64,000 nt of DNA from Elusimicrobiota bacterium (GTDB lineage: Bacteria; Elusimicrobiota; Elusimicrobia; UBA1565; UBA9628), in NCBI GenBank assembly GCA_016212855.1, contig JACRDP010000002.1:1-64000 (forward strand), read 5' to 3'. The notes beneath the pieces were generated by a model. That model was not told the origin of the DNA, ran no database searches, and saw nothing but the letters and a program-made list of their open reading frames with translations. Positions 47,136-55,345 of the stretch are shown here, piece after piece. Position numbers and translations under genes: made by a program. The number at the start of each line of letters is the position of its first letter. The stretch's first letter is position 1.

Positions 47136-47797
47136 GGCTTGGACAGCGTACCCGAGCGCCACGCCTCGATGGGCAGCGCCACGCAGCCGAACAGCGGGAT
47201 GGCGGTCGTGAAGAAGCCGGCGAGCACGAAACCCGGAGCCAGCTGCTTGGCCAGGTACACGCAGGCCTCTTGAAAGAGCCAAAGCCCGATGAAAAGGCGC
47301 AGGAGCCAGCCGGCGTTGGCCGCGACCGATCGCGCCCCGAGCTTCAGGGCTCCCCACGCGCCGGAGGCGTCGCTCCGGCGCAGCAGCGCGAACGTCGACA
47401 CGCCGCACAGCGCGAAGGCGACGATCTTGCCCGCGCCGAGCACCAGCGAGATGATCGCCATCGAGTACGATTGGGTCTGCTCGGCGTGCAGAACCCAATA
47501 CACGAGCGGCGTCGTGAGTAGTCCGAACACGAGGAGCAGCGGATACGGCAGAAGGAAGAGCTTCCAGGCGTCCGCCAGCCGGGCGGGCTTGACGCTCCAG
47601 CCGTCCCCGAGCCACAGCTCCGCGAACAGCGCCGTCACGGCCGAGGTCAGCGCCGCGAGCAGAAGCATCCGGATCACGACGGAGCCTCCGTCGAATATGC
47701 TCGCGACGTTCTGCGCGAGCAGGCCGAGCAGGGGCGGCGCGAGCAGCCAGGGCCGCTTCAGCGCACGGTCGCGGACCTCGGTGAGGAGCTTGCCCAC
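47132..47797 (-). CDS. Multi-span membrane protein, unknown
   Basis: 221 aa from the GTG at 47797, which shares a base with the upstream stop (TAGTG). Five or six hydrophobic segments, e.g. VVIRMLLLAALTSAVTALFA, LLPYPLLLVFGLLTTPLVYW and LVLGAGKIVAFALCGVSTFALL, with short basic loops. Overlap with the dehydrogenase gene is ATGA. No family recognised. Its place inside a CoA-ester operon suggests transport or envelope tethering, but that is inference. Confidence 0.75.
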   Translation of the reverse strand: MGKLLTEVRDRALKRPWLLAPPLLGLLAQNVASIFDGGSVVIRMLLLAALTSAVTALFAELWLGDGWSVKPARLADAWKLFLLPYPLLLVFGLLTTPLVYWVLHAEQTQSYSMAIISLVLGAGKIVAFALCGVSTFALLRRSDASGAWGALKLGARSVAANAGWLLRLFIGLWLFQEACVYLAKQLAPGFVLAGFFTTAIPLFGCVALPIEAWRSGTLSKP

Positions 47798-48624
47798 TAG
47801 CCCGGGATAAACGGCTCTTCCGACATCTTGGCCGCGACCGGGGTCCACGCCGGAACCTTCAGTTTGAACTTGGAGGCCTTGTCCTTGATGTCGGCGGCGA
47901 ACGCCTGCCTGACTTCGTCGTTGTCGCGTTTCTTGAGGCCGTACTTGCGGTAGATCGCGTTCTTCGGCGAGTTGGCCCGGCCGAAGATGTTCATCGTGCG
48001 CGGATACCACTTGTCGAACGCCGTCTGGAGCGCGTCGTGCGTCTTGTCGTCGGCCGAGAGCCGCTTCGCCCACTGGTCGCCGTGCGCCATGTGCATCTCC
48101 TCTTCCTTGAAGATGCCCTCCATGCCCTCGCACCACGGTTTGTACGAGCAGTCGAGCGAGTCCTCGAGCTGGTGGCCCGCGCCGCGGTCCATGCAGAAAT
48201 TGAACATGATGAAGTCCGACCACGTCTCGATCGGGTAGTAGAAGATGTTGACGCGCTTGTCTTCCGCGGCGCGCAAGGTGCCGATGTCGTCGGCGTCAAC
48301 GCGCAGATTGAAGTTGTGCGTCCGGTAGTACTCGTCGACGTCCACGCCCATGCCCTTGAGCAGGCGGTACATGACCGTCGCATGGCGGACCTCGTCCTTG
48401 ACGATTTGCGCCACGACGAGCGTCTCGTTGATGTCCGGAGCCTGCTGAATCCACGGCACGTAGCCGAACGCGCCGGCCAGCTCGGAGTCGGCCTGCATCG
48501 ACATCAGATTGGTGAGGTGCTCGCGGTATTCGTCGCTCATCTCGTCGAGGCGTTCGATCTTCTGGCCTTTGGCGATTTTGGCCAGGAGCTTCTCTTCGCG
48601 GATGCGATTGGGTTCGAGAGTCAT
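47797..48624 (-). CDS. PaaA/PaaC-like ferritin-fold diiron protein
   Basis: 275 aa, all-helical. Two diiron half-sites: Glu48 then E78-V-R-H81 (QIVKDEVRHATVMY), and E175-E-M-H178 (GIFKEEEMHMAHG). The region QADSELAGAFGYVPWIQQAP resembles PaaA of the phenylacetyl-CoA epoxidase. Neighbouring PaaG-like and PaaF-like crotonases support an aromatic or acyl-CoA oxygenation role. No PaaB, PaaC, PaaD or the reductase PaaE is nearby, so it may be a divergent stand-alone oxygenase. Confidence 0.8.
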   Translation of the reverse strand: MTLEPNRIREEKLLAKIAKGQKIERLDEMSDEYREHLTNLMSMQADSELAGAFGYVPWIQQAPDINETLVVAQIVKDEVRHATVMYRLLKGMGVDVDEYYRTHNFNLRVDADDIGTLRAAEDKRVNIFYYPIETWSDFIMFNFCMDRGAGHQLEDSLDCSYKPWCEGMEGIFKEEEMHMAHGDQWAKRLSADDKTHDALQTAFDKWYPRTMNIFGRANSPKNAIYRKYGLKKRDNDEVRQAFAADIKDKASKFKLKVPAWTPVAAKMSEEPFIPG

Positions 48625-48625
48625 C

Positions 48626-49435
48626 TCATTCTCCTATGAACTTGGGCGGCCTTTTTTCGAGAAAAGCGGTGACGCCTTCGGCGTGATCCTTCGTGCGGCC
48701 GAGAATCTCCTGCAGCTGGGCCTCGTACTCCATCTGCTGGTCGAGAGAGGCGGCCTCGAGCGACTTGTTGACCGCGCGCTTGGTGAGCGCGAGCGCGAGC
48801 GGCGGCATCTTGACGAGCTCGGCGGCGAAGGCCTGCGCCTCGGCGAGCACGGACTCCGTCGGCACGACCTTGTTGACCCAGCCCCAGGCCAGGGCTTGAT
48901 CGGAGGTCACCGGCTTGGCCAGCCAGGCGTGTTCCAACGCCTTTGAATAGCCCGCGAACCGCGGCAGGTAATAGGTCATGCCCGAGTCCGGGACAAGGCC
49001 GACGCGCACGAAGGCGTTGAGAAACGTCGCCTTCTCGGCGCAGACCTTGAGGTCGGTCGCGAGGATGATGGAGGCGCCGGCGCCGGCGGCGAGGCCGTTG
49101 ATCGCGCCGATCACGGGTTTCTCGAGACGGCGGATCTGCGCCACGAGCGGGTTGAAGTGGTCGCGGAGCTCGTCGCCGAGCGAGAACGACTTGACCGCCT
49201 GGCGCTTCTTGAGGTCGCCGAGGTCGGCGCCCGCGCAGAACGCGCGGCCCGAGGCGGTCAGAATCACGGCCTTGATCGTCTTGTCGCTTTCGGCCTTCTT
49301 CAGCGAATCGCGGATGCCCTTCATCATGCCCATGGTCAGGGCGTTGAGAACGTCGGGGCGGTTCAACGTGAGCGTGAGGACTCCGTCTTTCACGTCGATC
49401 AAAAGCTCTTGGGTCGCGGTTTCGGTCCTATTCAT
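48626..49435 (-). CDS. Crotonase-family enzyme, PaaG-like isomerase
   Basis: 269 aa. Crotonase oxyanion loops ASGRAFCAGADLGDL and AINGLAAGAGASIILATD. The second acid position reads VPDSGMTYYLPR, an Asp as in PaaG-type isomerases rather than the Glu of hydratases. So ring-opening isomerisation or double-bond shifting is more likely than hydration. It overlaps the other crotonase as ATGA, and the PaaA-like gene starts 1 nt after its stop. Confidence 0.88.
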   Translation of the reverse strand: MNRTETATQELLIDVKDGVLTLTLNRPDVLNALTMGMMKGIRDSLKKAESDKTIKAVILTASGRAFCAGADLGDLKKRQAVKSFSLGDELRDHFNPLVAQIRRLEKPVIGAINGLAAGAGASIILATDLKVCAEKATFLNAFVRVGLVPDSGMTYYLPRFAGYSKALEHAWLAKPVTSDQALAWGWVNKVVPTESVLAEAQAFAAELVKMPPLALALTKRAVNKSLEAASLDQQMEYEAQLQEILGRTKDHAEGVTAFLEKRPPKFIGE

Positions 49436-50208
49436 TTTCCGGTCCAGACGGCTTTGCGCTTCTCGGCGAAGGCTTTCATGCCTTCTTTTTGATCCTGCGT
49501 GTCGAAAAGACCGTAGAAAGCTCGGCGTTCCGCGGCGAGACCGTCCTTGAGACCCCGGTCGACGGCCGCGTTCACGGCGGCCTTGGCGGCCTGGACGGCG
49601 AGCGGCGGCTGCTCGGCGATGAGCTTCGCGAGCTTAATCGCCTCGCTCAAATAATTTTCGACCGGCACCATGCGATTGACGAGCCCGCGCTCGAGCGCCT
49701 CGCGCGCGCCGAGGCGGCGGCCGGTCAGATTCATTTCCATGGACACGGCCTTGCCGACGGCCTTCGTCAGTCTCTGCGTGCCGCCCGCGCCGGGCATCAC
49801 GCCGATCAAGACCTCGGGCTGTCCGAAAACGGCCGTCTCCGAGGCCACGATCATATCGCAGGCCATCGCGAGCTCACAGCCGCCCCCGAGCGCGAAGCCC
49901 GACACGGCCGCGATGAGCGGTTTTTTTAACGACCCGATCTTGTCCCAGTTCGAGAGATTGCGGCTCAACATTTTCTCGGCGCCTTCGGCGCCGTCAATAT
50001 TTTTCATCTCAGAAATATCTGCGCCTGCGGCGAACGACTTGGGGAGACCTGCCAGGACCATGCAACGAATCTCAGGGTCTCGGTCGAAACCTCCCAGCGC
50101 TTCGGAGACCGCGTCCATGACCGCGATGGACAGCGCGTTCAGCGACTGGGGCCTGTTGAGCGTGACGATCCCAACCTTTCCGTCGGTCTCGACGAGGACT
50201 TCGGACAT
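49432..50208 (-). CDS. Enoyl-CoA hydratase (PaaF-like)
   Basis: 258 aa from the ATG at 50208, which overlaps the aldehyde dehydrogenase stop by one base (TGATG). Both oxyanion-hole loops are present (PKSFAAGADISEM; SGFALGGGCELAMACD). Both catalytic Glu are present: one in GGGCELAMACD, one in PEVLIGVMPGAGGTQRL. It adds water to a 2-enoyl-CoA. A more upstream start would lie in the dehydrogenase gene. Confidence 0.93.
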   Translation of the reverse strand: MSEVLVETDGKVGIVTLNRPQSLNALSIAVMDAVSEALGGFDRDPEIRCMVLAGLPKSFAAGADISEMKNIDGAEGAEKMLSRNLSNWDKIGSLKKPLIAAVSGFALGGGCELAMACDMIVASETAVFGQPEVLIGVMPGAGGTQRLTKAVGKAVSMEMNLTGRRLGAREALERGLVNRMVPVENYLSEAIKLAKLIAEQPPLAVQAAKAAVNAAVDRGLKDGLAAERRAFYGLFDTQDQKEGMKAFAEKRKAVWTGK

Positions 50209-51713
50209 CAGTTCAGATCGACCCATACCGATTTCAACGACGTGTAGTTCTCGAGTGCCCACTGCCCCTTCTCGCGGCCGTAGCCGCTTTGCTTGACGCC
50301 GCCCCACGGCGCGGCCGCGTCGACGAACTGATAGCAGTTGATCCACACCGTGCCGGCCTTCAGGCGCGCGGCCGTCTGGTGCGCCTTCTTCACATCCTTG
50401 GTCCAGACGGCGGCGACGAGGCCGTAGTCGGTGTCGTTGGCGCGGGTCATGACCTCGTCGACGGTGTCGAAGGGGAAGACGGAGACGACCGGTCCGAAGA
50501 TCTCCTCGCGGGCGATCTTCATACTATCCTTCACGCCGCCGAACACGGTCGGTTGGACGAAGTAGCCGGGACCCGCGACCGAAGAGCCGCCCGCCAGCAG
50601 GTTCGCGCCTTCGGCTTTGCCGGACTCAATGAAGGACATGACGCGGTCGCGCTGCTGCGCGGACACAAGCGGACCCATCGCCATCTTGGGATCGAGCGGG
50701 TTGCCCTGCTTGATCGTTTTCGCCTTGGCCGCGAGAGCCTCGAGAAGTTTGTCGTGAGCGGAGCGTTCGATGAACACGCGCGAGCCGGAGGAGCAGGTCT
50801 GGCCCTGGTTGTAAAAGATGCCCATGAACATGCCGCGCGCCGCGGCCTCCATGTCGGCGTCGGCGAACACGATATTGGGGGACTTGCCGCCCAGTTCCAT
50901 CGTGACTCGCTTCATGTTGCCGGCGGAGGCCTTCACGACCTCGCGTCCCGTCGCCGTCGAACCGGTGAAGGTGACCTTGTCGATGCCCATGTGCGCGGCG
51001 ATCGCGTGGCCGGCGGTCTTGCCGTAGCCCGGAACCACGTTCACCACGCCCGGAGGCACCCCGGCCTCGAGCAGGAGCTCGCCGAGCCAGAGCGCGGACA
51101 AGGGCGTCTGCTCGGCCGGCTTGAGGATGATCGCGTTGCCGCAAGCCAAAGCCGGAGCGAGGCGCTCGGCGGCCATCAGCAGGGGGAAGTTCCACGGAAT
51201 GATCGCTCCGACCACGCCGACGGGCTCGCGCACGGTATAGTGGAGAAATTTGGCCCCGGGATAATACGGCACCGAGACGGGCGTCGTCTCGCCGTGAAGC
51301 TTGGTCGGCCAGCCGCCGTAATAGCGGAACAAAGCGGCCGAGAGGGGCAGATCGCCGCTCTTCGCTTCGCGGATCGGCTTGCCGTTGTCGAGCGTCTCGA
51401 GCTGGGCGAAAGCCTCGGCGCGCGCCTCGATGAGGTCGGCGACTTTATGGAGTATTTTCTCGCGATCGGCGGGGGACAGCTTGGACCACGGCCCCTCGAG
51501 CGCCTTGCGCGCGGAGACGACGGCCCGGTCCACATCGGCGGACTCGGCCTCGGAGACGACGCCGAGCGTCTCGCCCGTGGCCGGATTGAGGGTCGTGAAG
51601 GTCTTGCCCGAGGCGGCTTCGACGGGCTGGCCGTCGATGAGGAGCTTGTGCAGCTTGCGCGACAGGAATTCCTTCAAAAGGGGGTGAACTTCGGGAAGGG
51701 TGGCGGCGGTCAT
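50208..51713 (-). CDS. NAD(P)-dependent aldehyde dehydrogenase
   Basis: 501 aa, full length. NAD site GAIIPWNFPLLM and KVTFTGSTATGREV, general base Glu273 in MELGGKSP, nucleophile Cys307 in NQGQTCSSGSR, and the C-terminal PWGGVKQSGYGREKG. It oxidises an aldehyde to the acid. As first gene of an operon with crotonases and a PaaA-like oxygenase, phenylacetaldehyde or a similar substrate is plausible but unproven. A clear GGAGG precedes the ATG; the upstream gap contains hairpin element 2. Confidence 0.95.
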   Translation of the reverse strand: MTAATLPEVHPLLKEFLSRKLHKLLIDGQPVEAASGKTFTTLNPATGETLGVVSEAESADVDRAVVSARKALEGPWSKLSPADREKILHKVADLIEARAEAFAQLETLDNGKPIREAKSGDLPLSAALFRYYGGWPTKLHGETTPVSVPYYPGAKFLHYTVREPVGVVGAIIPWNFPLLMAAERLAPALACGNAIILKPAEQTPLSALWLGELLLEAGVPPGVVNVVPGYGKTAGHAIAAHMGIDKVTFTGSTATGREVVKASAGNMKRVTMELGGKSPNIVFADADMEAAARGMFMGIFYNQGQTCSSGSRVFIERSAHDKLLEALAAKAKTIKQGNPLDPKMAMGPLVSAQQRDRVMSFIESGKAEGANLLAGGSSVAGPGYFVQPTVFGGVKDSMKIAREEIFGPVVSVFPFDTVDEVMTRANDTDYGLVAAVWTKDVKKAHQTAARLKAGTVWINCYQFVDAAAPWGGVKQSGYGREKGQWALENYTSLKSVWVDLN

Positions 51714-51730
51714 TCGTCCTCCGTTTTTTC

Positions 51731-51804
51731 GGTGTCAGGCTTTCGGTTTTAACTTTTCGCAAGTCGGGCGGGCTGGTAAAAGTTAAAACCGAAAGCCTGA
51801 CACC
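51731..51804. repeat. Intergenic hairpin element 2 (27-bp perfect stem)
   Basis: Arm 51731-51757 begins GGTGTCAGGCTTTCGG and matches the complement of 51778-51804 exactly, with a 20-nt loop. The AT-rich inner stem contrasts with the high-GC surroundings. It sits between the divergent aldehyde dehydrogenase and adenylate cyclase genes. Confidence 0.9.
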
Positions 51805-51863
51805 TTGCAATCTCGTCGTACGGCTTCCTTAATTCAATCAAATTCAGGGGCGGTCGCGCTCAC

Positions 51864-51892
51864 TTGACGGGGGCCGCCGTGCGGGCTATGCT
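51864..51892 (+). promoter_or_regulatory. Sigma70-type promoter of the cyclase gene, leaderless
   Basis: TTGACG (51864-51869), exactly 17 bp, TATGCT (51887-51892) in GCTATGCT context. The ATG at 51900 is 7 nt further. Confidence 0.7.
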
Positions 51893-51899
51893 TGCGACC

Positions 51900-53660
51900 A
51901 TGCACGACTCGACGTCCGGCATGGTCCACCGCGCCATGGACCGGGAATGCAGGCGCAACGCCAAGCGCCTGAGCACCATCCGCCTTATCTGCGTATCCGC
52001 CGTCCTCGCCGTCGCCGCCTGGCTGGGGCTGGGACGCGGCGTGAGCAACTGGCTGGCGCCCCTGCCCCTGTTCGCCGTGTACGCGGGGGCGAGCGCGGGC
52101 CTGGCCCTGGCCGCCTGGCGGCGTCCCGCGCTGTATCGCCTGGCCGGCCTGGGGCTGCTCCTGCTCGACGTGCCGATGGCCTACTGGATTCAGAGCTCCT
52201 CGATGGCCGTCTCGGAGGCCCCGGCCGGCACGGCGTGCTTCGCCTTGGGACTGTTTTGCCTCTTCACCTTGCTCGCGGCCTTGACGCTCGATCGCCGCCT
52301 GGCCGTCGGGGTCGCTTTGGCCGGCGCCGTTCTCGAGATCGCGCTGCTGCGCCAGGCCGGCGTTCCGGGCGGCGCTCAAATCGCGGCCCTGGTCGTCCTC
52401 GGCGGCGCGGGCACGGCGGCCTGGCATCTCGTTTCGCGGGTGCGCGTGCTGGTCGCCGCCGTCTCGCACGAGGGCATGAAGCTCGAGAGGCTCAGCCGCC
52501 ACTTCAGTTCCGCGGTGGCCGAGAAGCTGCTCAGCGGCGGCGAGGAGACGGCGAAGGCCTGCGAGGCGACCATCCTGTTCTCGGACATACGCGATTTCAC
52601 GGCGCTGTCCGAGAAGCTGGCGCCGGAGAAGGTCGTCTCCATGCTCAATGAATACCACGAGCGGATGGTGGAGACCATCTTCAAGCACAACGGCACGCTC
52701 GACAAATTCATCGGCGACGGCCTCATGGCCTATTTCGGCGCGCCGCTGGCCGACGCGCGCCACCCGTTCAACGCCGTGGCCTGCGCTCTGGAGATGGTCC
52801 AAGAGCTGGCCGCCGTCAACGAGGCCCGGTCCGGCCGAGGCGAACCGGTCCTGCGCATCGGCATCGGCGTGCACACCGGACCCGTCGTGGTGGGAAATAT
52901 CGGCTCGCCCACCCGGCGCCTCGAGTTCACCGCCATCGGCGACGCGGTGAACCTCGCGTCGCGCATCGAGGGGCTGACCAAGCAGCACGGCGTCGTCACC
53001 TTGATCTCGAAAACCACGCGCGATCTCGCCGGAGACGAATTCGGCTGGACCGAGGCCGAACCGGTGATCGTGAAGGGAAAGAGCGAGCCCGTGCGCACCT
53101 TCATCCCGCGCGTCCTGCCGGCCCTGCTCCTTTTCGCCGCGCTGGGAGCGAGCGCGGAGACCTCGTGCCTGTCGCGCGTCGCCGCGCAGATTTCAGCCTT
53201 ACGATCCTCTTTTCCCAGACTCGACGGCCTCAACCTCGTCCTCGAGCCCTTCGAGTCCGGCGAGGACTTCTTTCAGGCCCGCCCGCGCTCGTTCTGGCGC
53301 GACCCGCGGGACCGCGTCTACGCGGTGCGGGTCAATACCAAGCTCTGCGGCGATCCGCCGCCGCCGGAGGCCGAAAAAGCGATCCTCGCCCACGAGCTCG
53401 CGCACATCGACGCGTTCTCGACGATGGGACGACGAGGACTGCTGGGCCTCGGCTGGCGCTACGCCGTCGCGCCCGCGAGCAAGCGGATTTCGGACTTCGA
53501 GAAGGACGCCGACCGCGCGGTGATCAAGCTCGGCTTCGCCGAGGGTCTCGCGCGCTACCGCGAGTGGCTGTATCCGCGGGTCTCCGTGAAGACCGCGGCT
53601 CGCAAGAAGCTCCTCTATCTGACCCCCGACGAGCTGCGGCGCGCGGCGGCCGTCAAATAA
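51900..53660 (+). CDS. Membrane adenylate cyclase fused to a C-terminal HExxH metallopeptidase-like domain
   Basis: 586 aa. About six hydrophobic spans (28-190) precede a class III cyclase domain. Metal-binding Asp residues are in FSDIRDF (227-233), Lys269 in LDKFIGDGLM is the adenine-selecting residue, and TAIGDAVNLASRIE (around Asp348) holds the Thr/Asn/Arg set expected of adenylate cyclases. After FIPRVLP a further hydrophobic stretch (LLLFAALGASAE, about 399-421) looks exactly like a signal peptide. It leads to a domain with ILAHELAHIDAF (HExxH at 498-502). The protease-like part would be periplasmic. An internal GTG at 53091 could start a separate secreted form. Confidence 0.88.
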   Translation: MHDSTSGMVHRAMDRECRRNAKRLSTIRLICVSAVLAVAAWLGLGRGVSNWLAPLPLFAVYAGASAGLALAAWRRPALYRLAGLGLLLLDVPMAYWIQSSSMAVSEAPAGTACFALGLFCLFTLLAALTLDRRLAVGVALAGAVLEIALLRQAGVPGGAQIAALVVLGGAGTAAWHLVSRVRVLVAAVSHEGMKLERLSRHFSSAVAEKLLSGGEETAKACEATILFSDIRDFTALSEKLAPEKVVSMLNEYHERMVETIFKHNGTLDKFIGDGLMAYFGAPLADARHPFNAVACALEMVQELAAVNEARSGRGEPVLRIGIGVHTGPVVVGNIGSPTRRLEFTAIGDAVNLASRIEGLTKQHGVVTLISKTTRDLAGDEFGWTEAEPVIVKGKSEPVRTFIPRVLPALLLFAALGASAETSCLSRVAAQISALRSSFPRLDGLNLVLEPFESGEDFFQARPRSFWRDPRDRVYAVRVNTKLCGDPPPPEAEKAILAHELAHIDAFSTMGRRGLLGLGWRYAVAPASKRISDFEKDADRAVIKLGFAEGLARYREWLYPRVSVKTAARKKLLYLTPDELRRAAAVK

Positions 53661-53662
53661 TC

Positions 53663-53668
53663 TAAACT
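53663..53668 (+). promoter_or_regulatory. -10 box of the thioesterase gene
   Basis: TAAACT, 6 nt before the ATG at 53675. No -35 visible. Confidence 0.4.
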
Positions 53669-53674
53669 GGGTCG

Positions 53675-54163
53675 ATGAGCCCGAAGACCCCGGCCCCCTG
53701 GCCCCTGCCGGACTGGGAAGCCGTCCAGCCGTTCCCGTTCGCCACCGCGCGCGGCGCGTTCGCGGGCATGACCGGCACCGAGGGGCGCATCGTCCTCAAA
53801 TACTACCGCCGCCACGACGGCTCTTTGGTCGCGACCGCGCAGTTCGGCAAGCACAGCGAGGGCGCGCCCGGTCTCGTCCACGGCGGCGCGATCCTGACCG
53901 CGCTCGACGAGGCGCTCGGCGCGGCGGCCTGGCTCATGGAGCGCCCGGTGATGACCGCGCGCCTGACGACCGAGTTCCGCCGGGGCGTGCCGCTGGGGGC
54001 GACCATGCTCGTGGAGACCCGCTTCATCCGCGAGCGCCACCGCCTCGTCCTTCTCGAGGGAACCATGACCGGGACCGACGGTCAGGTTTACGCCTACGCC
54101 GACGGGCGGTTCATGGTCCTGGCCGAAGCGGACCAAAAGCGCATTCTGGGCCGAGCGGCCTAA
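53675..54163 (+). CDS. PaaI-type hotdog-fold thioesterase
   Basis: 162 aa. The hotdog signature is GLVHGGAILTALDEALGAAAW, followed by strands TARLTTEFRRGVPLGATMLV and RLVLLEGTMTG. The HGG(A)..D/E arrangement is that of acyl-CoA thioesterases of the 4HBT/PaaI group. Substrate unknown. It may serve the CoA-ester operon on the other strand. It ends 18 bp before the aminotransferase gene, which has its own -10 box. Confidence 0.88.
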   Translation: MSPKTPAPWPLPDWEAVQPFPFATARGAFAGMTGTEGRIVLKYYRRHDGSLVATAQFGKHSEGAPGLVHGGAILTALDEALGAAAWLMERPVMTARLTTEFRRGVPLGATMLVETRFIRERHRLVLLEGTMTGTDGQVYAYADGRFMVLAEADQKRILGRAA

Positions 54164-54169
54164 AAAAGC

Positions 54170-54175
54170 TAAAAT
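54170..54175 (+). promoter_or_regulatory. -10 box of the aminotransferase operon
   Basis: TAAAAT in GCTAAAAT context, 6 nt before the ATG at 54182. Confidence 0.45.
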
Positions 54176-54181
54176 CGGCTC

Positions 54182-55345
54182 ATGCGCCTGGCTCAAAGCT
54201 TTTCGCGCCTGGGCACCGAGACCGCCTTCGAGGTCTTGGCCCGCGCCCGCGCCCTGGAGGCCAAGGGCCGTAAAATCGTCCATCTCGAGATCGGCGAGCC
54301 CGATTTCGACACGCCTAAAAACATCCGCGACGCCGGCAAGAAGGCCATCGACGCGGGCTACACCCACTACGGGCCGTCCGCCGGGCTGCCGGAGGCGCGC
54401 AAGGCCGTCGCCGAGTATGTCTCCAAGACGCGGGGGATAACGGTCAAGCCCGAGGAAACCATCCTCGTCCCCGGCGGCAAGCCCGTCATTTTTTTCACTC
54501 TTCTCGCTTTGATCGAGCCCGGCGACGAGGTGATCTACCCGAACCCCGGCTTCCCGATCTACGAGTCGATGATCAATTTCGCGGGAGGCAAGGCCGTGCC
54601 GCTGCCGATCCGCGAGAGCCTCGACTGGGATTTTGACCCGGCGGAGTTCGAGAAGCTCCTCACGCCCAAAACCAAGCTCGTCATCCTCAATTCTCCCGCC
54701 AACCCGACCGGCGGCGTGATGACCCCGGCGACGATGGAGCGCGTCGCGCGGGCCCTGGCGAAGTTTCCCGACGCGATGATCCTGTCCGACGAGATCTACT
54801 CCCGCATCGTCTACAAGGGCGAGCACCGCTCGATCCTGTCCTTGCCCGGCATGAAGGAGCGGACGATCCTGCTCGACGGGTTCTCGAAGACCTGGGCGAT
54901 GACCGGCTGGCGCCTGGGCTACGGCGTGGGACCCAAGTGGCTCATCGACGCGATGGCCAAACTCTCCACAAACGACCACAGCTGCGTGGCCTCCTTCTCC
55001 CAGATCGCGGCGATCGAAGCGCTGACCGGGCCGCAGACCTCGGTGACATCCATGGTCAAGGAGTTCAAGAAGCGCCGCGACGTCATCGTCAAAGGCCTGA
55101 ACGCCCTGCCCGGCGTGACCTGCAAGACTCCCAACGCCGCCTTCTACGTGTTTCCGAACATCACGGGCACCGGGCGGCAGTCCAAGGCCCTGGCCGACGC
55201 GCTGCTCAACGACGCGGGCGTCGCCTGCCTGCCCGGCACGTCCTTCGGCGCGCTGGGCGAGGGCTACCTCCGTTTTTCCTACGCGAACTCCGTCGAGAAC
55301 ATCGAGAAAGCGCTCGCCGCGATGAAGAAGGTCCTGTCCCAGTGA
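54182..55345 (+). CDS. Class I/II PLP-dependent aminotransferase
   Basis: 387 aa. Motifs: HLEIGEPDFDTP, HYGPSAGLPEAR, NSPANPTGGVM, LSDEIYSRIVY, the PLP Lys236 in DGFSKTWAMTGWRLGY, and YLRFSYANSVENI with the carboxylate-binding Arg. Similar to AspC-subgroup aspartate/alanine aminotransferases; amino-donor specificity cannot be read from the sequence. Head of a four-gene coupled run (GTGA into the ABC exporter). Confidence 0.93.
   Translation: MRLAQSFSRLGTETAFEVLARARALEAKGRKIVHLEIGEPDFDTPKNIRDAGKKAIDAGYTHYGPSAGLPEARKAVAEYVSKTRGITVKPEETILVPGGKPVIFFTLLALIEPGDEVIYPNPGFPIYESMINFAGGKAVPLPIRESLDWDFDPAEFEKLLTPKTKLVILNSPANPTGGVMTPATMERVARALAKFPDAMILSDEIYSRIVYKGEHRSILSLPGMKERTILLDGFSKTWAMTGWRLGYGVGPKWLIDAMAKLSTNDHSCVASFSQIAAIEALTGPQTSVTSMVKEFKKRRDVIVKGLNALPGVTCKTPNAAFYVFPNITGTGRQSKALADALLNDAGVACLPGTSFGALGEGYLRFSYANSVENIEKALAAMKKVLSQ

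Follow-up and report, generated by a model that had tools for sequence, protein, structure and literature searches.

An adenylate cyclase joined in frame to a secreted gluzincin-like peptidase: a probable lineage-specific gene fusion in one Elusimicrobiota genome

We report one open frame of 586 codons (51900-53657, forward strand, its stop codon ending at 53660) in the window, i.e. the 64,000-nucleotide stretch of Elusimicrobiota DNA analysed here, which combines a class III adenylate cyclase, a further hydrophobic segment and a domain with a HELAH motif. This composition had been described in a sequence-only reading and is borne out by the open reading frame, by Pfam and by hydropathy. We consider it probable that the frame represents a real, lineage-specific gene fusion, in which a cyclase gene was joined to the gene of a secreted gluzincin-like peptidase; the event itself looks recent and of an ordinary kind, a lone gene fusion and not a known type of sensor. 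It was seen in one draft genome (2.5 Mb, 30 contigs, about 73% complete by estimate), in which it lies on one contig (C27), and a second fused genome was not found. The search for orthologues with the same domain order, which that reading had proposed, returned the cyclase-peptidase fusion in the window only among 340 genomes of the phylum, a count in which one weak hit (G222) lies in a long frame viewed in part.

Table 1. Features of the fused frame and of the region preceding it (positions in the window).
Feature	Position	Strand	Basis
Palindrome to the left of the cyclase; perfect arms of 27 nt separated by 20 nt	51731..51804	.	Repeat search
Sigma-70-like promoter (TTGACG-17-TATGCT); 7 nt separate its end from the ATG	51864..51892	+	9/12 consensus matches
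Class III adenylate cyclase part with six spans, residues 1-404	51900..53111	+	PF00211, hydropathy, alignment with solved cyclases
Possible nested start: GTG in frame at residue 398	53091..53093	+	Frame position
Former signal peptide VLPALLLFAALGASA, residues 405-419, with ASA|E cleavage-like site; where the G011 orthologue begins	53112..53156	+	Alignment, hydropathy
Gluzincin-like domain, residues 420-586, with H498, E499, H502 and proposed ligand E534, D538	53157..53657	+	Alignment, weak Pfam

The cyclase half matches PF00211 over residues 222-397 with an E-value of 1.6e-27 and 96.8 bits against a curated cut-off of 21.9, and the hydropathy windows, overlapping ones being grouped by hand, place six N-terminal spans at about residues 27-179, ahead of the catalytic domain. 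The closest solved class III domain is 2w01 (4.2e-37), with 6fht, 3r5g (CyaB) and 1wc0 also among the best, and D229, K269, D273, T344, N351 and R355 align with the solved cyclases. We take D229 and D273 to be the two metal aspartates, K269 and T344 to serve the substrate and N351 and R355 to belong to the active site. The cyclase half is predicted to make cAMP.

The close relatives of this half are encoded as separate cyclase genes. A class-wide search gave a match at E 1e-50 or better in at least 13 of 235 genomes, the window's genome included, with at most seven first-look candidates scored per genome. Seven of the 12 other matching genomes hold close orthologues with 55-73% identity (G015, G017, G029, G037, G025, G044 and G035), all with a C-terminus and all stopping 4-16 residues past the end of the match at residue 401 or 403; the N-terminus is absent from the match in G035, which begins at a contig end, and in G044, which matches from residue 131. 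The remaining five cyclases are more distant and likewise retain the C-terminus, three ending 4 residues past the match and two having longer tails (75 and 81 residues) that showed no HExxH by eye. A partial match in G013 (residues 2-154, at a contig end) does not include the C-terminus and was excluded from the count.

For the peptidase half, a residue check confirmed the HELAH motif at residues 498-502 as first read, and it is invariant in the alignment of the window member with its relatives (3/3). FEKDAD occupies residues 533-538, with E534 and D538 invariant in the same three sequences, providing a conserved candidate for the third zinc ligand that the sequence-only reading had left to be found, which is probably E534. 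The best Pfam E-values among the three members scanned were 0.019 for M48, 0.13 for SprT-like and 0.17 for M56, the sole Pfam peptidase hit of the window member being SprT-like with 12.5 bits, under the cut-off of 25.6, and NCBIfam gave no match for the peptidase. Because the Pfam hits are weak and NCBIfam has none, we name the domain gluzincin-like and not a member of M48, M56 or SprT. Membership in any of these three was considered and rejected, none of the listed Pfam scores passing a family cut-off. A PDB profile search returned one chance-level hit (E 0.68).

The profile of the three relatives matches at least five of the 340 phylum genomes, the window's included, with at most nine first-look candidates scored per genome. 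In G011 the peptidase, the closest one to the window's, is a stand-alone open reading frame of 189 amino acids with 68% identity, a GTG start and a signal-peptide-like beginning; the more distant G013 protein (38% identity) adjoins an upstream open reading frame read by eye as M23-like, and G005 carries a truncated remnant with a frame change. No cyclase match was found near the peptidase in G005, G011 and G013 (stretches of 5.8 to 11 kb, E 1e-5). In viral contigs 51 stretches fit a pattern, none of which was confirmed as a relative, and plasmids and phages gave no match. In G222 (L050) the profile finds a weak relative, containing GHELAH, within a 6402-codon open frame, 1143 codons of which were viewed. 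The relatives thus outline a small family of secreted gluzincin-like proteins in one Elusimicrobiota genus, without a convincing match in Pfam or NCBIfam, and in our judgement this small unnamed peptidase family is a more lasting point of interest than the fusion.

At the junction, the cyclase ends in VKGKSEPVRTFIPR, followed directly by GTC codon 405, to which the GTG start of the G011 peptidase corresponds by eye; the exact matching codon is uncertain because MAFFT sets the length gap inside the first G011 residues. Hydropathy places a seventh hydrophobic span at residues 397-424, in agreement with the segment noted before at about 399-421. We scanned all one-base changes around this point. 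Within codons 397-415 no substitution creates a stop, and all 57 one-base deletions and all 228 insertions shift the stop to codon 541 or 589. Over codons 380-425, 14 substitutions create stops, at codons 380-396 and 416-425, those at 416-425 landing in the peptidase signal peptide or just behind it, and 104 of 138 deletions and 539 of 552 insertions push the stop far down, the remainder stopping within 380-423. The underlying run of 18 codons free of near-stop codons was spotted post hoc, the only two such windows of the frame being the junction itself, and near-stops are rare there anyway, the codons being hydrophobic and GC-rich. Given that one-base changes in codons 397-415 never yield a stop close by, we regard a sequencing slip as unlikely, and a single slip at the junction would not restore two normal genes. 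The sequence-only reading had named two things that together would undo the fusion, i.e. separate genes in relatives and a sequencing frameshift or missing stop: the halves are indeed separate in relatives, whereas the scan lends the frameshift or missed stop no support. An insertion or deletion appears to have joined the two genes.

Third-position GC reaches 0.87 in the peptidase part when counted in the coding frame, compared with 0.69 and 0.50 in the remaining frames, so that the tail looks coding; the cyclase and the junction have 0.91 and 0.83. Pairwise NG86 comparison of the peptidase half with the stand-alone G011 protein gave dN 0.259 and dS 1.117, and that of the cyclase half with the separate G015 orthologue dN 0.237 and dS 0.81, values which fit purifying selection on both halves and, being pairwise, cannot place the constraint after the fusion. 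The full-length fold predicted from the single sequence had a mean pLDDT of 39.4, too low for a usable model.

The neighbouring thioesterase was found in 15 of 19 genomes of the genus, the window's included; its surroundings were read in all 14 others, leaving out another G012 match situated at the end of a contig. Thirteen of these 15, the window's among them, also have an aldehyde dehydrogenase (ALDH) next to the thioesterase; in the stretches examined for G004 and G012 no ALDH was found. The slot between the two genes holds a cyclase in the window alone (1/13), the peptidase in two genomes (the window's and G011, in which it sits between the reverse-strand ALDH and the thioesterase as in the window), plus the G005 remnant, and in five (G003, G005, G009, G013 and G016) related membrane proteins of a kind that carries a PilS-like six-span domain, the Pfam match having been made on the G005 protein only. 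As the occupants differ among the 13 genomes, genes come and go in this slot. In G005 (L051:1436-2884) the gene of the PilS-like six-span protein runs into the truncated, frame-changed peptidase remnant in the same slot; BLASTP found no relation between the six-span cyclase part and this membrane protein (E 0.29). Elsewhere in the window, the reverse strand carries at 47797-51713 a PaaA_PaaC-family protein (under the NCBIfam PaaA cut-off), two frames read by eye as enoyl-CoA hydratase-like and an aldehyde dehydrogenase, which together may form a cluster for the breakdown of aromatic acids.

We propose that a stand-alone six-span class III cyclase gene arrived just ahead of the small secreted peptidase gene; no other cyclase orthologue was seen at the ALDH-thioesterase locus, so that the route of insertion is putative, which weakens the proposal. 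The cyclase would then have lost its stop and the peptidase its GTG start, now the inner GTC; of this, the sequence itself shows the open frame and the loss of the start, whereas the direction of change is inferred. One mRNA would presumably give one chain, in which the cyclase domain would stay cytosolic, the former signal peptide would act as the seventh span and the zinc domain would lie in the periplasm. Six plus one spans fit the topology of the sequence-only reading, and its placement of the cyclase inside and the HExxH domain outside is what hydropathy would predict. If the chain is then cut at ASA|E, as it may be, the peptidase would be set free and what remains would be an ordinary cyclase. 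Zinc binding and both enzyme activities are likewise predicted. Both halves occur alone in relatives, which makes independent function the default, and the two activities most likely work independently.

A single promoter-like site was found in 51600-54300 versus a mean of 0.1 in shuffles, located before the cyclase, so that the peptidase probably depends on the cyclase transcript. As this promoter ends so close to the ATG, the cyclase-peptidase mRNA may be leaderless. By eye, -10-like boxes also lie just before the GTG of the G011 peptidase and before the G005 membrane protein, which makes leaderless transcripts likely here. In window frames of at least 200 codons, many of which are not genes, a TANNNT box lies 5-8 nt upstream of 8 of 402 early in-frame starts versus 6 of 874 late ones. 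The class Elusimicrobia is listed with a CCUCC-type anti-Shine-Dalgarno in the passages of PMC10783764 covered here, and these passages do not name it as leaderless. Rfam had no match in 51000-54500.

The palindromic element left of the cyclase looks like a small non-autonomous repeat. The last 16 nt of its arm recur at nine places of the genome, of which eight have both arms. Elsewhere in the genus G018 has one copy of this arm end (one mismatch), and the other 17 genomes searched have none; compared by eye, copies vary in their arms with pairing preserved. A further copy (G000:C6:9730-9806) lies about 250 bases past the point where the cyclase domain of a different cyclase gene ends. A Y1 transposase, considered as the mover, was not found in this incomplete genome.

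Two further readings accept the frame as it stands. The internal GTG at 53091, which is indeed in frame as the sequence-only reading had stated, might also start the secreted peptidase alone, with a 22-residue signal peptide (398-419), beside the long fusion. Two arginines, a hydrophobic core and an AxA site follow it, AAGGGAAAG lies upstream, G011 encodes the peptidase alone and the anti-Shine-Dalgarno type given for Elusimicrobia in the part of PMC10783764 covered makes such internal starts possible in the phylum. However, both the purine stretch upstream and the GTG itself belong to the codons for the VKGK..PV end, which is much alike in the cyclase orthologues, and since they encode this common end they need no second reason; the spacing from AAGGGA to GTG is long (12 nt) and no promoter-like site lies just before 53091. 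We therefore regard a nested product as unlikely, if worth keeping in mind. Less likely still is a device working as one chain, in which either the state or substrate of the peptidase alters the cyclase by way of span seven, or the peptidase is anchored in the membrane by the cyclase. Such a device would be compatible with the predicted topology, anchors of six spans may serve cyclases as receptors according to the part of PMC4821796 covered, and in G005 the membrane protein gene continues into what is left of this peptidase in the same slot; against this, the domain order was seen in one of the 340 phylum genomes searched for the peptidase, the G005 membrane part is unrelated by BLASTP to that of the window, and the G005 case looks like decay because its peptidase is truncated and frame-shifted. 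The link of cAMP to periplasmic proteolysis or sensing that had been suggested is thus possible, yet without comparative support, and we hold it improbable that the protein is a seven-span enzyme in which cutting by signal peptidase or peptide binding outside changes cAMP inside; if such coupling were true, it would be a new route feeding periplasmic proteolysis into cAMP signalling.

That an assembly or consensus error joined two genes we consider very unlikely. The genome is a draft and the parts are separate in relatives, but the ALDH/thioesterase locus is common to 13 genomes and the G011 peptidase lies at the same place, so that two wrong joins would be needed, the cyclase lying inside the shared locus with the peptidase placed as in G011. 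The absence of any one-base change in codons 397-415 yielding a nearby stop and the similar third-position GC across cyclase, junction and peptidase also speak against it.

As a lone, lineage-specific event, the fusion offers a clear snapshot of how the signal peptide of a secreted protein can become an inner membrane span once another gene is placed in front of it. A search of open-licence papers by title and start of abstract returned nothing on point for cyclase-metalloprotease fusions or Elusimicrobia cyclases; beyond that, it yielded general cyclase papers and nothing about this family. Six-span class III cyclases (PF00211) follow the Rv1625c-like design, and the window protein likewise has six N-terminal spans and then one catalytic domain with class III motifs; unlike these, it adds a seventh span and an HExxH domain after the catalytic domain. 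Gluzincins typically combine HExxH with a later E in an ExxxD context, an arrangement that the window domain shares with M48, M56 and SprT-like peptidases, whereas it differs from them in scoring weak E-values only and in comprising about 167 residues after the signal peptide. In LipJ (lipase/adenylate cyclase) and the TOMM kinase/cyclase, as in the window, a class III cyclase domain is joined to another enzyme, but the window matches them through the cyclase region alone and far under the NCBIfam cut-offs, and both the partner and the order differ.
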